The notes beneath the pieces were generated by a model. It did not search any database and was not told where the DNA came from. It saw only the letters and a list, made by a program, of their open reading frames with translations. Source: Zingiber officinale (lineage: Eukaryota > Streptophyta > Magnoliopsida > Zingiberales > Zingiberaceae). From it: a stretch of 64,000 bases of DNA. A program made the position numbers and the translations under genes. Below, in pieces: positions 7,077-50,150 of this stretch. The first letter of the stretch is position 1, and every line of letters starts with the position of its first letter. The stretch covers positions 92,346,984 to 92,410,983 of the forward strand of contig NC_056005.1 in assembly GCF_018446385.1 (NCBI RefSeq), given 5' to 3'.

Positions 7077-7590
7077 TTTGGGGTTTAAAGTCGTCGCTCG
7101 ACCGTCGATAGAGAGCTGAGTTTAACGTCGTCGCTCGACGATTTGACGAAGACTCGGGTTTAAGGTCGTCGTTCGACCGCCGATGGAGACCTGGGTCTAA
7201 CATCGCTGCTCAACGATCGGTGAAGACTCGGGTTTAAGGTCGCCGCTCGACCATCGATGGAGACCTGGGTCTAACGTCGCCACTCGACGGTCGGTGAAGA
7301 CTCAAGTTTAAGGTCGCCGCTCGATCGCCGGTGGAGGCCTGGGTTTAACGTCGCGGCTTGACGGTCGGTGAAGACTCGGGTTCAAGGTCGCCACTCGACC
7401 GCCGGTGGAGACATGGGTTTAATATCGCCGCTCGACGGTCGGTGAAGACTCGGGTTTAAGTTCGTCGCTCGACCGCCGGTGAAGACCTGGGTTTAACGTC
7501 GTCACTCGACGATCGGTGAAGACTCGGGTTTAAGGTCGCCGCTCGACCGCCGATGGAGACCTGGGTTTAACGTCGCCGTTCAACGGTTTG
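7077..7590. repeat. Tandem repeat in gypsy 3' region, about 74-bp period
   Basis: About seven imperfect copies of a dimeric unit built from GAAGACTCGGGTTTAAGGTCG and GGAGACCTGGGTTTAACGTCG, each half followed by a CGCTCGAC-type word. The half-unit is about 37 bases and the full unit about 74. It lies just beyond the integrase gene, the hypervariable 3' region where Tat elements often carry tandem repeats. Confidence 0.8.
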
Positions 7591-38279: not shown

Positions 38280-38990
38280 GAGCGATCGGACTGATGCCGA
38301 TCGGATGGATAGATGTCGGGCGGACTATGCCGCTCGTGCGACCGGAATGACGTCGATCGGTCGGATAGATGCCGGGCGGACGATACCGCGCGTGCGACCA
38401 GAATGATGTCGATCGATCGGATAAATGCCTGGCGGACGATACCGCGCGTGCGACCGGAATGACGTCGATCGGTCGGATAGATGCCGAGCGGACGATACCG
38501 CGCGTGCGACCGGAATGATGTCGATCGATCGGATAAATGCCAGGCGGACGATACCGCGCGTGCGACCGGAATGATGTCGATCGATCGGATAAATGCCAGG
38601 CGGACGATACCGCGCGTGCGACCGGAATGACGTCGATCGGTCGGATAGATGCCGGGCGGACGATACCGCGCGTGCTACCGGAATGACGTCGATCGATCGG
38701 ATAAATGCCAGGCGGACGATACCGCGCGTGCGACCGGAATGATGTCGATCGATCGGATAAATGCCAGGCGGACGATACCGCGCGTGCGACCGGAATGATG
38801 TCGATCGATCGGATAAATGCCAGGCGGACGATACCGCGCGTGCGACCGGAATGACGTCGATCGGTCGGATAGATGCCGGGCGGACGATACCGCGCGTGCG
38901 ACCGGAATGATGTCGATCGATCGGATAAATGCCAGGCGGACGATACCGCGCGTGCGACCGGAATGACGTCGATCGGAAGAATAGATACCT
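38280..38990. repeat. Minisatellite A, 56-bp unit
   Basis: About twelve copies built on GATCGATCGGATAAATGCC, GGCGGACGATACCGCG and TGCGACCGGAATGATGTC. Two sub-types alternate (GATCGATCGGATAAATG versus GATCGGTCGGATAGATG). Because 56 is not a multiple of three, the long minus-strand frame across it cycles through three reading frames; it is a by-product, not a gene. Confidence 0.9.
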
Positions 38991-39149
38991 GGCCGCGACG
39001 ACTGCTCGACCCCGAACGGGGGAGATAGATGATCATGAATCTGGTCCGTGACCAGTGAAGGCCGCTCAACCCCGAACGGGGGATATAGACATATGATGTG
39101 CTGGTCCGCTGAACTGGTCCGAAACCGGTGATGATCGCTTGAATATAAT

Positions 39150-39615
39150 CCTCCCGGCCGATCGGCTCAGGGGTCTTCGCCATCGAGCCCCTGGCTCGTA
39201 TATAATCCTCCCGGCTGCTCGGCTCGGGGGTCTTCGCCATCGAGCCCGTAGCAGCTACGGGCTCGTATATAATCCTCCCGGCCGAACGGCTCGGGGGTCT
39301 TCGCCATCGAGCCCCTGGCTCGTATATAATCCTCCCGGCTGCTCGGCTCGGGGGTCTTCGCCATCGAGCCCCTGGCTCGTATATAATCCTCCCGGCTGCT
39401 CGGCTCGGGGGTCTTCGCCATTGAGCCCGTAGCAGCTACGAGCTCGTATATAATCCTCCCGGCCGAACGGCTCGGGGGTCTTCGCCATCGAGCCCCTGGC
39501 TCGTATATAATCCTCCCGGCTGCTCGGCTCGGGGGTCTTCGCCATCGAGCCCGTAGCAGCTACGGGCTCGTATATAATCCTCCCGGCTGCTCGGCTCGGG
39601 GGTCTTCGCCATCGA
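39150..39615. repeat. Minisatellite B, 57-bp unit with a 10-bp variant
   Basis: Units carry CTCGTATATAATCCTCCCGG, CTCGGGGGTCTTCGCCATCG and AGCCCCTGG. Some units have a longer end containing GTAGCAGCTACGGG, giving 67 bases. The middle alternates GCCGAACGG, GCCGATCGG and GCTGCTCGG. Confidence 0.9.
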
Positions 39616-40810
39616 ACCAGTGACTCGGATATAAACCTCCCGGCCGATCGGCACGGGGGCCTTCGTCTTCGAGCCTGTGGCTCGGATATAAACCTCCCGG
39701 CTGAGCGTCTTCGAGCCTGTGGCTCGGATATAACCTCCCGGCCGATCGGCTCTTCGTCTTTGAGCCTGTGGCTCGGATATAAACCTCCGGCCCTCGGGGG
39801 CCTTTCGCTTCGAGCCCGTGGCTCGGATATAAACCTCCCGGCCGATCGGCACGGGGGTCTTGAGCACGTGGCTCGGATATAAACCTCCCCGAACGGCTCG
39901 GGGCTTCGTCGTCGAGCCCGTGGCTCGGATATAAACCTCCGGCGAACGGCTCGGGCTTTGCCTCGATCTGGCTCTAATACACCCACCCGGCCGAACGGCA
40001 CGTGGCTCGGATATAAACCTCCGGCCGATCGGCACGGGGCCTTCGTCTCGAGCTCGTGGCTCGGATATAAACCTCCTACCGAACGGCTCGGGGCCTTCGC
40101 TTCGAGCACGTGGCTCGGATATAAACCTCCGGCCGATCGGCACGGGGCCTTCGAGCACGTGGCTCGGATATAAACCTCCTGGCCGGGGGCCTTCGCCTTC
40201 GAGCCCGTGGCTCGGATATAAACCTCCGGCCGATCGGCACGGGGCCTTCTTGAGCCTGTGGCTCGGATATAAACCTCCGGCCGAACGGCTCGGGGTTCTT
40301 CGAGCCTGTGGCTCGGATATAAACCTCCTACCGAACGGCTCGGGGCCGCCTTGAGCCCCTGGCTCGGATATAAACCTCCCGGCCGATCGGCACGGGGGCC
40401 TTCGTCTTCGAGCCTGTGGCTCGGATATAAACCTCCCGGCCGAACGGCTCGGGGGCCTTCGTCTTCGAGCCTGTGGCTCGGATATAAACCTCCCGGCCGA
40501 TCGGCACGGGGGCCTTCGTCTTCGAGCCTGTGGCTCGGATATAAACCTCCCGGCCGAACGGCTCGGGGGCCTTCGGCATCGAGCCTGTGGCTCGGATATA
40601 AACCTCCCGGCCGAACGGCTCGGGGGCCTTCGTCTTCGAGCCTGTGGCTCGGATATAAACCTCCCGGCCGAACGGCTCGGGGGCCTTCGTCTTCGAGCCT
40701 GTGGCTCGGATATAAACCTCCCGGCCGATCGGCACGGGGGCCTTCGTCTTCGAGCCTGTGGCTCGAATATAAACCTCCCGGCCGAACGGCTCGGGGGCCT
40801 TCAATGATAA
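39616..40810. repeat. Minisatellite C, 57-bp unit, about 20 copies
   Basis: Units carry GGATATAAACCTCCCGGCCG, an (A/T)-varying ACGGCTCGG or TCGGCACGG centre, and CCTTCGTCTTCGAGCCTGTG. Copies from 39660 to 40330 are ragged and shortened; those from 40370 to 40800 are regular. 57 bases equals 19 codons, so frames stay open on both strands. Confidence 0.9.
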
Positions 40811-41060: not shown

Positions 41061-41214
41061 GATTTTTAACGACGGTGCTCGTCGGTCTCCAAGTGAGACT
41101 ACACACCCGGCCGAACGGCTCAGGCCTTCGTCGTCGAGCGCTTGGCTCGGAAAACCATATACCCGGCCGACCGGCTCGGGCCTTCACATCGAGCGCTTGG
41201 CTCGTATATAATCC

Positions 41215-41480
41215 TCCCCGAGGTAGTCTCGGCTAAAATGTACCTGGCCGAACGGCTCAGGCCTTCGCTCCCTGAGGTAGAGTACTCAGCTATAATGTAC
41301 CTGGCCGAGCGGCTCAGGCCTTCGCTCCCTGAGGTAGTACTCAGCTATAATGTACCTGGCCGAGTGGCTCAGGCCTTCGCTCCCTGAGGTAGTACTCAGC
41401 TATAATGTACCTGGCCGAGTGGCTCAGGCCTTCGCTCCCTGAGATAGTACTCAACTATAATGTACCTGGCCGAGCGGCTC
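41215..41480. repeat. Minisatellite E, 54-bp unit
   Basis: About five copies with CTCAGCTATAATGTACCTGG, CCGAGCGGCTCAGGCCTTCG and CTCCCTGAGGTAGTA. It shares the GGCCGA-CGGCTC centre with B and C. Two C-type units follow at 41490-41600. Confidence 0.85.
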
Positions 41481-41716
41481 AGGCCTTCGGGTTCGAGCCC
41501 CTGGCTCGGATATAAACCTCCCGGCCGATCGGCTCGGGGGCTTTCGTCTTCGAGCCCGTGGCTCGGATATAAACCTCCCGGCCGATCGGCTCGAGGGCCT
41601 TCGGGACTAGTACAGATCATATAACTGACAGAACAAATAACAGAAAAACTGACCGTGGTCATGGGGATGGCAGAACTATCCGGCGTCGTTCATCTTCACG
41701 TTCCAGATCAGGCGCG

Positions 41717-45189: not shown

Positions 45190-46729
45190 GAGACTGAGTA
45201 ACTTCCGAATCCGACTTCGACACCCGAAACACAAGAAGTACCGGTGCAATTACTTCTAAGGTTCAGAAAATTCCTCCTTTAAAATCTTCTATGTTTACTA
45301 AACATTTTGATAATATCACTCTTCCATCGGGAGAATTGGATGGAAAATGTAAGCACTGCAATGCTTTCTAAAAATTCCAAGCTGGCGGTGGTTATGGATC
45401 ATTGAAACGACACATAGAAGTGATGCACTCGACGAAATTTGGAATTGACCATGCTTAATTTTTTTTTTGGACCGTTGGCCGATGGTTCACGATCATTGGA
45501 GCCGCTAGACATTGAGATTAAAAAACAAAGGTTTTTTTTTATATTTTTTTCAATGGTCAAGATCATTTGACCATTTCTTGATCGATGGCTACGATTTAGT
45601 ATCCATTACTTTACAAACTTTATAAAGAGAGTTTATTTCATTATTTTCACATACCTCTTCTTTACTCTCATTCTCAATTTCGCAATCTCTACACGTTTTC
45701 GACTCCATTTCTCCACACTTTTGGTTTCCTCTTTCGAGTTTCGACTACAATAGAAGGAGGCCGAGGGCGAGGAGGTTCATCATCTTGATCTTGAAGGGGC
45801 AAGGAAATAGCAAATCCGAACATTCATCCACTGATGATGAGACCGAGCAACTTTCGAATCCACCTTCAACACCTGAAATACAAGGAAGTATCAATGTAAT
45901 TACTTATAAGGTTCGGGAAGTTCCTCTTTTAAAATCTTTTATTTTTACTAAATATTTTGATAAGGTCCATCTTCCTTCGGGAGAATTGTGTGTAAAATGT
46001 AAGTATTGTAATTCTTCCTACAAATTTCAAGACGGCGGTGGCTATGGGTCGTTGAAATGACATGTAGAAGTGAAGCACTCGATGAAATTTGGAATTGATC
46101 GTGCTCAATTTTTTTTGGGACCACTGGCCGATGGTTGAGGCCCATTGGAACCGCTAGCTGTTGGGATGAAAAAACTGTTAGGACCAAAAGTAGCTAGAGG
46201 GGGGGGGGGGTGAATAGCTCGTCGCGTTCGCTCGGTGCTCGGCGTTGCTTGTTTCTTCAAGAATATGCAGCGGAAAATACAGAAACAAATACAACAACGC
46301 TAACACGGTTGGTTTACCTGGTATCCACCTCACAAGAGGTGACTAGTCCAAGGATCCACACCACGCACGCACCCTCCACTATGAAAGCACTCCTTTTCGG
46401 TAACTACCGAGGGCGGAGAAGCCCTACAATACTCAATACAAGAAGAGAGGGAAAGGATACAAGAAATACAAGCTTACAAGCTTACAATGAGTACAAAACC
46501 CTAACCCTAGCTTCTCTTCTTGGCTTTGATCTGCCTCTTGACTTGGAGAGCTTCCAAGATCCTTCAAGAACTGGCGATCTGAGCTTTGTGAGCGCTGTGG
46601 AGGAGTTGGTGAGAGCTCTGGAATGAATCGGTGAAGTTCTTCCGCAGCCATCGAACGCCTGTAGCTATAAACGATGTCAACGGTCGGATCCCGATCGATT
46701 CGAATGTTCCCAATCGATCGGGGAGGCTT

Positions 46730-46954
46730 TGGATCGATCCACGGATCGATCCAGAGCGCCTCTGTGCTCTGGAAACGCGCCTGGATCGATCCACGGATCG
46801 ATCCAGCGCTTATCGCGCGAAGCAGCCGCGTCCCAATCGATCCACTGATCGATTGGGACCTCTGGATCGATCCACGGATCGATCCAGAAGCTCTCTGTTC
46901 GCTGGAGAAGTCTGGATCGATCCAGAGCCTGGATCGATCCACTGATCGATCCAG
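46730..46954. repeat. Five dyads on GGATCGATCC / AATCGATTGG
   Basis: Perfect inverted repeats at 46730-46753, 46781-46806, 46832-46857, 46861-46888 and 46929-46954. Four have arms containing TGGATCGATCC; the third has CCCAATCGATC with matching GATCGATTGGG. Loops are AC or CACT. Arm changes are matched on the other arm. Confidence 0.9.
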
Positions 46955-46995
46955 CACTTGGTTTTTGTCCAAAACCAAGTCCTAAACCTCCCAAA

Positions 46996-47641
46996 CCAAC
47001 ATCCGGTCAACCTTGACCTGTTGGTATGTCATGCCTAGCATCTAGTCACTCCCTTGACCTGCTAGGACTCCCTTACCAAGTGTCCGGTCAATCCCTTTGA
47101 CCCACTTGGACTTTTCTCTGTGCCAAGTATCCGGTCAATCCCTTTGACCTACTTGGACTTCCCAGCACCAGATGTCCGATCATCCTTGATCCATCTGGAT
47201 TTTCCCTTGCCTGGCTTCACTCACCAGGGCTTTCACCTAGCTTCACTCACTAGGGTTTTCCATCTGCCTAGCTTCACTCACTAGGACTTTCACCTAGCTT
47301 CACTCACTAGGGTTTTCCCTCTGCCTAGCTTCACTCACTAGGACTTTCACCTGGCTTCACTCACCAGGATTTCCATCTGCCTAGCTTCACTCACTAGGAC
47401 TTTCACCTGGCTTCACTCACCAGGATTTCCATCTGCCTAGCTTCACTTACTAGGACTTCCTTCTGCCTGGCTTCACTCACCAGGACTTTCACCTGGCTTC
47501 ACTCACCAGGATTTCCATCTGCCTAGCTTCACTTACTAGGACTTCCTTCTGCCTGGCTTCACTCACCAGGACTTTCATTTTGCCTAACATCCCAGTTAGG
47601 ACTTCCCAGTCAAGTATCCAGTCAACCTTGACCTACTTGAC
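46996..47641. repeat. Chain of about 20 short inverted repeats
   Basis: Long units: 46996-47024 (arms CCAACA), 47034-47066 (CCTAGCA), 47076-47109 (CCAAGTG), 47123-47156 (CCAAGTA), 47168-47198 (CCAGATG). They are followed by thirteen units CCTRGCTTCACTCACYAGG (47210 to about 47570; two have TTAC for TCAC). A CCTAAC/GTTAGG unit (about 47583-47600) and a TCAAGTA/TACTTGA unit (47610-47640) close the chain. Each is followed by ACTT or a similar spacer. Confidence 0.9.
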
Positions 47642-50150
47642 TCTTCTTCAATCAATATCTTATTGTCAAACATCTAAACCCAAACCAAGACTCAGCTTGG
47701 TTACCCAGGTCAACCTTGACCTGAGGGATATTGCACCAACAAAAACAAGGTTTTTTTTTTTGTATTTTTTCAATGGTTGAAATCATTTGATCATTTTTTG
47801 ATTGATAACTCTGATTTAGTATCTGTTACTCTACAAACTTTATAAATAGAGAGTTCATTTCATTATTTTTCACATACCTCTTCTCTATTCTCATTCTCAA
47901 TTCCGTAATCTCTATACGCTTTCGACTCCAATTCTCCACACTTTTGACTTCCTCTTTCGAGTTTCGACTACAATGGAAGGAGGTCGAGCGCAAGAAGGAG
48001 GTCGAGGGCGAGGAGGTTCATCATCTTGATCTTGAAGGGGCAAGGAAATAGTGAATTCGAACATTCAATCCACTAATGATGAGATCGATCAACTTTCGAA
48101 TCCGACTTCGACACCTGAAACACAAGGAAGTACTGATGCAATTATTTCTAAGGTTCGGGAAGTTCCTTCTTTAAAATCTTTTATTTTTACTAAACATTTT
48201 GATAAAGTCATTTTTTCGTCGGGAGAATTGCGTGGAAAATATAAGCACTGCAATGCTTCCTATAAATTTCAAACTGGTGATGGCTATGGGTCATTGAAAC
48301 TACACATATAAGTGAAGTACTCGATGAAATTTGGAATTAACCGTGCTCAAACACAATTATCTAGATTTTCTTCTAGTGAAAGTAGTGATTCTAGTTTATT
48401 TTATATTCTAATAATAAATTAGAGAATCATTAGCTAGATTTATTTTTGAAGAACATCTTTCATTTAGTTTTGGATCTAAATGCACTTTTGAATATTTTTG
48501 TAAAGAATCTCTTAGTCCATCTGCTAAACGTGTTTCTAGAACTACACATACAAAAATAATTAAAAGATTAATAAAACAAGGGAAAAAATAACTAAAGAAT
48601 TTAGTAAATTAAATAATAAAATTTCTTTATATTCCGATATTTGGAGTGATCATTGACAAACAAATTTATATATAGGTGTAACTTTGCTATTAGATTGATA
48701 GCTCCTGGAATATCCAAAAAAAATTATTAGCTTATAAAATTTCTGATAAATCACATAATGCTTACGATATCTTATAATTATTATGTTTAATTTTAGAAGA
48801 ATATAGATTAACTCATAAAATATTTTCAATATCATTTGATAATTCTAATTTTAATACTGTTAGTATTAAAGAACTTAAATTTATATGTTAATCTATTATT
48901 AGTGGTTTATTTTTTCATATTCGTTGCATTTGTCATGCTTTAAATTTATGTGTTCAGGATGGATTAAGAATTTTAGCAAATTATATTGAACCAATTAGAA
49001 ATATCATTTCCTATTTATGGTTACATCCATATATAATGAAACAATGAGGTAAATTTTATAAAATTAAAAGAATGAAAACTAAAAAATTTCTACATAATAT
49101 ACCAATACGTTGGAATTCAACATATCAATTGTTATATGATTAGTTTCAATATAGAGAATTATTATGCTCATTTTTGCACAAAATATTAATAATGCTAATA
49201 TATATTTATTTTAACAACAATAGAATATTTGTGATAGTATTTGTAAAATTTTAAAAGTATTTAATGATGCACTGAATAACTTTCCAATTTTTATTATCGT
49301 ACTTCTCATTTATTTGTAGGAAATTTTTGTAATATATTATTAGTTTTAAATGAAAATAGTATTAATGAATTTTTATCTTATTGTATATTAACAATGAAAA
49401 CGAAATGAGAAAAATTATTTTTTCATATTCATGAAATTTATATAGTTGTATTTGTTTTAGACCCTAAATATAAATTAGAAGTTTTACAAAAAAATATAAG
49501 GTTTATAGTATGATGCTTTAATTCTATTTAAAGATTCTTCTTATGCTGATCCAAATAATAGTATATATAATATTAGAAATTATTTATACGATATTTATAA
49601 AGAATATAGTATAAAATTTGGAATACAACTTAATATTTCTTAAATATAAAATACTTGTAGTAGTAATTTAAAATTTATAGAAGTACAAATTTTATTAAAA
49701 GAATGGACGAAATACCCATGATGATCCTCAAGTTCCATGAGGAGCTTGAAAATTATTTTATGACTTCTTTTGATTTTAATGAAATAGATTTTGATGTCAT
49801 AAAGTGGTGGTTATAGAAGAGGTTTAAAACTTTCTCGTCCTCTCCATGATCGCCAAAGAAATTTTAGTTTATCTAATGTCAATAGTTGCTGTGGAACAAA
49901 TGTTTAGTGTCGGCGGTAATATATTGGATGAACAACAATCGACATTGTCTTTCGATTTGTTGGAAACCCAAGTATTACTTGACGATTGAACCATAGTCGA
50001 AAAAAGAATTCACAACTTTCAGATAGCGAAGTTGAAGAATTTGATATCGAAGGAATAAATACTACAAGAATGGGAAATGGAAGTGAATAACAACGCCACT
50101 TCATAAGGCAAAATGATGAAAAGATAAGAGAATTACATTGACTTTGATTC

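Follow-up and report, generated by a model that had tools for sequence, protein, structure and literature searches.

What keeps the two arms of a hairpin matched while the letters of the arms themselves change? The question is raised by a chain of dyads in the genome of Zingiber officinale, within a stretch of 64,000 nucleotides that was analysed as a whole and is referred to here as the window. The original prediction, made from the letters of this stretch, held that the arms vary in step and suggested that selection, or a copying process, maintains the dyad itself. Read directly in the window, 46996-47640 comprises 20 dyads whose outer arms are all complementary, arranged as five long units, thirteen 19-bp units and two further units (Table 1). 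Eight outer-arm types occur in this single array, with loops of about 4-9 nt and a 3-nt bulge in the long units.

The description of the array itself was confirmed. A search for the 19-bp unit allowing up to three mismatches gives 13 matches, against 0.02 expected by chance, and all thirteen predicted units are among them; the variable letters R and Y, which form pair 4 of the stem, covary as described, with no mixed combination. Eleven of the 13 agree exactly with CCTRGCTTCACTCACYAGG, the other two carry CTTCACTTA in the loop, and the spacers between units measure 7, 11 or 12 bp. The seven longer units that had been noted around them, five before and two after, all show exact complementarity of their outer arms.

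Table 1. Features of the hairpin array and of the element that contains it (window coordinates; ".", no strand).
Feature	Position	Strand	Basis
Target-site duplication AAAAC, low side	46171..46175	.	Flank letters
Solo LTR, 1,566 bp, TG...CA, array in its upstream (sense) part	46176..47741	-	Homology edges to relatives, ends, target-site duplication
Poly-C tract, 12 C on sense strand, 23 bp from LTR end	46199..46210	-	Resembles Sirevirus integrase signal as described in PMC2829016
TATA-like TTATAG, sense LTR position about 1,071	46665..46670	-	Motif only
GATCGATC / CGATCG palindromic box cluster, between hairpin array and TATA-like motif	46692..46951	-	Window letters
Long unit "slot 1", arms CCAACA/TGTTGG	46996..47024	-	Window letters; two paired states in genome
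Long unit "slot 2", arms CCTAGCA/TGCTAGG	47034..47066	-	Window letters; two paired states in genome
Long unit "slot 3", arms CCAAGTG/CACTTGG	47076..47109	-	Window letters; two paired states in genome
Long unit, arms CCAAGTA/TACTTGG	47123..47156	-	Read in window
Long unit, arms CCAGATG/CATCTGG, inner stem GATCA/TGATC	47168..47198	-	Read in window
Thirteen 19-bp units, arms CCTGG/CCAGG (R/Y = G/C, 6) or CCTAG/CTAGG (R/Y = A/T, 7)	47210..47570	-	Motif search and window letters
Short unit, arms CCTAAC/GTTAGG, 6-nt loop	47583..47600	-	Read in window
Long unit, outer arms TCAAGTA/TACTTGA	47610..47640	-	Read in window
Additional dyad CAGGTCAACCTTGACCTG close to LTR start, beyond the originally predicted array	47706..47723	-	Read directly
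Target-site duplication AAAAC, high side	47742..47746	.	Flank letters

The array lies in an LTR whose 5-bp duplication is perfect on both flanks, and its family was surveyed in 86 regions (85 fetched from the genome plus the window), 73 of which have a recognisable LTR start. In relatives this start, TG, is preceded by AGGGGGAG and then AT; they carry a Sirevirus-type PPT exactly 10 bp upstream of the 3' LTR with an AT/TG attachment site, the window copy being a solo LTR. The exact AGGGGGAGAT/TG junction was found in 18 of the 73 regions and a version with one or two mismatches in 7 more, as expected of 3' LTRs. A poly-C-like motif is present in 34 of the 86 regions, some of which stop short of the LTR end. 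Internal pieces of one relative gave a zinc knuckle above the cut-off and a Retrotran_gag_2 (copia-type gag) match below it (E 1.6e-4); the four pieces scanned yielded no pol domain. Palindromic repeated motifs, a feature of Sirevirus LTRs, are supplied by the array itself. On this evidence, we call the element Sirevirus-like. Judged from its sequence, the array is the palindrome-rich upstream or control region of the LTR of a very abundant Sirevirus-like Ty1-copia retrotransposon, here a solo LTR.

Several other features of the window and of the family were observed alongside. The flanks of the solo LTR, 45522-46108 and 47742-48350, share about 84% identity along roughly 600 bp; the LTR therefore adjoins repeated sequence. 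An assignment of these flanks to a hAT transposon was abandoned after two frames gave no Pfam match. Three other tandem arrays (38282-38975, 39143-40802 and 41214-41603), built of units of roughly 55-57 bp, are perhaps LTR arrays of another family, and 7081-7585 holds 6.8 tandem copies of a 74-bp unit. The members of several LTR pairs in regions L068-L107 of contig C1 are separated by only about 5.1-6.1 kb, which is short by comparison with the 9-14 kb of the Sireviruses tabulated in PMC2829016; these may be non-autonomous derivatives. At C1:1628800-1643130, spacing and strand suggest an element nested in another of the same family, with arrays in both.

With R and Y left free, the 3.09-Gb genome holds 222,737 copies of the 19-bp unit. 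Pair 4 of the unit is G-C in 110,714 copies, A-T in 99,394 (by subtraction), A-C in 7,846 and G-T in 4,783, so that 12,629 of the 222,737 are mixed and 94.3% are Watson-Crick, with an odds ratio of about 293. The distribution of the two paired types was followed in a set that we treat as unbiased, consisting of the window and 40 regions within the initial 2.2 Mb of contig C1, picked because the unit was listed there (two of them, L089 and L102, came from the mixed-state list only); the other 45 regions came solely from mixed-state search loci and are biased for pair 4. Both types occur together in 37 of these 41 regions, the remaining 4 having G-C units only. The G-C and A-T units are two old lineages, and most copies inherited their matched arms rather than evolving them anew. 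The R/Y correlation among the thirteen window units was read too strongly in the original prediction: it is mainly a consequence of the copying of two old lineages rather than of thirteen independent compensations. The original prediction named recent duplication of all units from only two master units as one case against it, and the thirteen 19-bp units come close to that.

The coexistence of the two lineages in 37 of 41 regions is what would be expected if a few paired-arm unit types arose long ago and have simply been copied since, pairing being no longer maintained. Pair 5 of the G-C type unit points in the same direction. Genome-wide, its single-arm states (8,123 + 1,673, or 9,796) outnumber the 374 doubles 26 to 1, and here the other finding named in advance as adverse, single-arm changes as common as paired ones, does obtain. 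The odds ratio of 3.05 approximately matches the background measured between left-arm and right-arm positions that do not pair (2.7 for 272 units and 3.0 for 715) and leaves the doubles without excess, so compensation at pair 5 was dropped. Pooling the four pairs other than pair 4 gives 34 doubles against 8.8 expected in 715 sampled units, 27 of them Watson-Crick, with an odds ratio of 6.0 versus 3.0 for unpaired positions; in 272 units there are 11 doubles, 7 of them Watson-Crick, and the odds ratio is 11.9. Doubles summed across all element comparisons (5,603 versus 19,217 singles at 80-90% identity) were set aside as a test because the events are non-independent.

The longer hairpins tell against copying from a few founders as the whole explanation. 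Long units were chosen on the core plus one arm, picked at random, that differs by no more than 2 letters from one of ten known arms. Of the 508 obtained, 272 pair at every one of the 7 outer positions, compared with a mean of 41.3 and a maximum of 55 in 500 shuffles. They include 12 distinct fully paired arm types, the core being shared by many arm sets. When arm columns are ranked by association, five of the seven true pairs stand in the top eight of 91, the top-ranked pair being one that is not a base pair. Each of three long units also shows two paired states at a single pair. Counted by eye in the first 100 genome matches listed for each, slot 1 (10,941 matches) has C-G in 55, T-A in 40 and mixed states in 5; slot 2 (3,772 matches) has 15, 77 and 8; and slot 3 (11,396 matches) has 82, 15 and 3. 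The GATCG[x]TC...GA[y]CGATC boxes, with all other box letters required exact, are A-T in 162, G-C in 85 and otherwise in 14, hence paired in 247 of 261.

The three long hairpins and the GATCG-box class are accordingly 92-97% paired, with two states each, and together with pair 4 of the 19-bp unit they make five hairpin types with two paired states. LTRs differ in the combination of slot states that they carry, which points to separate events. Several hairpin types show two paired states and few intermediates, combined in ways that vary among LTRs, and this fits poorly with inheritance from a few founders; the origin of the paired states would still need a cause; taken alone, we consider such inheritance rather unlikely. 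The same data bear on the possibility that transcription factors bind the dyads as dimers in double-stranded DNA, as has been suggested for enhancer boxes of retrotransposons. Like Sirevirus repeated motifs, the array does lie upstream of a TATA-like motif in the LTR; however, a single binding specificity is at odds with 12 fully paired arm types on one core and with the eight arm types of the window LTR, which makes this an improbable account of the array.

The two-state changes counted inside a slot are all C-G to T-A transitions. Since one arm repeats the sequence of the other on the opposite strand, the same methylated-cytosine hotspot could mutate in both, and parallel changes of this kind would look like compensation. 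Hotspot mutation is nevertheless very unlikely to account for the pairing: pair 4 has an odds ratio of about 293, against about 3 for unpaired arm positions, and double changes are nearly absent where the two LTRs of one element are compared. These LTR pairs, which were assigned from spacing, strand and identity with their target-site duplications unchecked (1 of 20 presumed pairs was dropped for its short alignment), show what happens to the dyads after insertion. In the 19 pairs retained, arm pairs have changed singly in 71 and doubly in 2 of 1,941 column pairs, both doubles being in units that differ elsewhere too and are possibly different units. Restricting the count to the 12 pairs whose two LTRs both belong to the unbiased set gives 33 single changes and 1 double of 1,177. 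Therefore, the dyads persist in the transposing lineage, with no sign of repair in resident DNA.

This result also weighs on the idea that one arm serves as the template for the other during reverse transcription or replication, so that both change in one step and selection plays no part. Double states with few intermediates, and differing paired arms on the same loop or core, are what such copying would leave behind. Against it, exact 19-bp units in both orientations within one region were found in 0 of the 86 regions, and resident copies show 71 single changes and at most 2 doubles, these in otherwise differing units, an observation that bears on resident DNA and not on reverse transcription. 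Templated copying of arms thus seems hardly likely. Of the two processes that the original prediction offered for keeping the dyad, copying in resident DNA is disfavoured by the LTR pairs, while the dyads have indeed been kept over the history of the family, as the 272 of 508 paired long units and the five two-state hairpin types attest.

In line with the LTR pairs, the single-arm states are largely decay of resident copies. Of 43 arrays with paired G-C units, 30 have an array in the same state on the same strand at a distance of 3.5-13.5 kb, and for the single-arm states a same-state neighbour was found in 26/92, 16/92, 13/99, 10/91, 30/89 and 10/81; the lists differ in density and the paired unit is far commoner, making chance neighbours likelier for it, so these counts are a rough guide. 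Places on contig C2 were left out, namely 1 of 100 in the pair-5 list drawn from 1,673 occurrences and 16 of 100 in the pair-3 list drawn from 1,242.

The contrast between conserved loops and drifting arms, another part of the original prediction, applies to the 19-bp units, where divergence between elements 85-90% identical is 0.044 in loops and 0.103 in arms, but fails for the longer classes, whose loops diverge faster than their arms between elements (0.154 versus 0.092); classes were recognised from the loop motif together with partial pairing in one copy, a procedure that brings both figures down. Arm and spacer divergence in the longer classes is 0.013 and 0.023 within LTR pairs, and 0.044 and 0.094, or 0.092 and 0.139, between elements, so that the ratio within pairs is close to the one between elements. 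Purifying selection on the arms was not retained as a conclusion from these ratios, given that arms diverge less than spacers between elements but in LTR pairs too.

If pairing matters, it may do so in DNA or in RNA. Both strands were folded, as had been proposed, and each folds better than its 20 dinucleotide shuffles, none of which is as good; the z value is -8.9 for the LTR sense strand (minus in the window) and -6.1 for the other. An RNA hairpin would tolerate a sense U.G pair, and in the 19-bp unit genome-wide such singles exceed sense mismatches at pair 3 (G-C type only; 8,858 versus 1,242), pair 4 (7,846 versus 4,783) and pair 5 (G-C type only; 8,123 versus 1,673). At pair 3 the U.G state is commoner with a same-state neighbour (30/89 versus 10/81 for the mismatch) and is therefore transmitted. 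At pair 5 the singles are mostly private to one LTR in both classes (10/91 and 13/99 with a neighbour), and the U.G ratio there may thus reflect mutation supply. Within LTR pairs, sense U.G and mismatch singles number 38 and 24. Among the first 100 matches listed for each slot, singles are even at slot 1 (3 versus 2), 3 versus 0 at slot 3, and reversed at slot 2, with 1 sense U.G and 7 C.A. The idea that G.U is tolerated on one strand specifically was therefore not adopted: the 19-bp unit is suggestive, but slot 2 contradicts it and the changes at pair 5 are mostly private. Overall, RNA is weakly favoured over DNA as the level at which pairing acts.

Taken together, our findings probably describe the palindrome region of a Sirevirus-like LTR in which the hairpins are inherited with both arms and pairing-capable units are favoured in the copies that transpose. 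Selection for pairing in the transposing lineage is the best single reading of the whole hairpin set, albeit an unproven one. Master copies have passed on a chain of several hairpin types together with both arms, and we propose that pairing-capable units would be favoured among the copies still transposing. The U3 of the 3' LTR, as part of the element RNA, may fold into stem-loops, which is the most likely reason for such favouring, and new arm types could spread through transposition together with unit duplication inside the array. The more specific claim, that about 20 predicted stem-loops are selected for pairing in the sense RNA of the element while their stem letters turn over, is put forward tentatively and is open to considerable doubt. 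If true, it would make this an unusually abundant structured-RNA array, with more than 210,000 paired copies of one unit in a single genome, and effectively an RNA hairpin put through a mutational scan by nature.

Sirevirus LTR palindromes are thought to be regulatory and to be targets of host small RNAs, selection on pairing itself being unsettled in the literature covered. Our search of that literature, which reached the 2016 study in Genome Res 26:226 through PMC10760457 and PMC5311732 rather than through its own text, found no report that deals with the units described here or with covarying arms in Sirevirus LTRs; a term search of PMC2829016 gave no mention of compensation, and two-state pairing was measured here in the present family. 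With hundreds of thousands of unit copies and with LTR pairs as a built-in neutral control, selection on pairing can therefore be tested by dated compensatory changes.

As described in PMC2829016, Sirevirus LTRs carry palindromic repeated motif (RM) boxes, which have a CGG-CCG core and precede the TATA box, and Sirevirus hallmarks include the AGGGGGAG PPT with its AT/TG junction and a poly-C signal for the integrase lying about 21 bp from the end of the LTR. The ginger family resembles these elements in its high-copy LTR palindromes, PPT, AT/TG junction and poly-C signal. In relatives of the window LTR, moreover, GATCGGTC...GACCGATC boxes stand besides the GATCGATC boxes in the cluster that corresponds to 46692-46951, next to the hairpin array, and these hold the CGG-CCG core. 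Several of the listed RMs have GGTC...GACC in common with the inner stem of the long units, GGTCA/TGACC. The RM table of PMC2829016 gives one consensus per element, with the CGG-CCG core in all but one; in contrast, the window LTR has eight arm types and a 3-nt bulge in its long units, and by reading its 20 units lack the full CGG-CCG dyad.

The palindrome-rich LTR region is reported to be a small-RNA hotspot in maize Sireviruses. The 2016 study (Genome Res 26:226) reportedly dealt, like ours, with palindrome clusters of predicted secondary structure in the LTR regulatory region; small-RNA mapping was its subject, whereas the present family was analysed from sequence. The ginger array is therefore a region of a kind already known, the palindrome-rich LTR of Sireviruses, in a richer form with eight unit types and a two-state pairing that can be measured.
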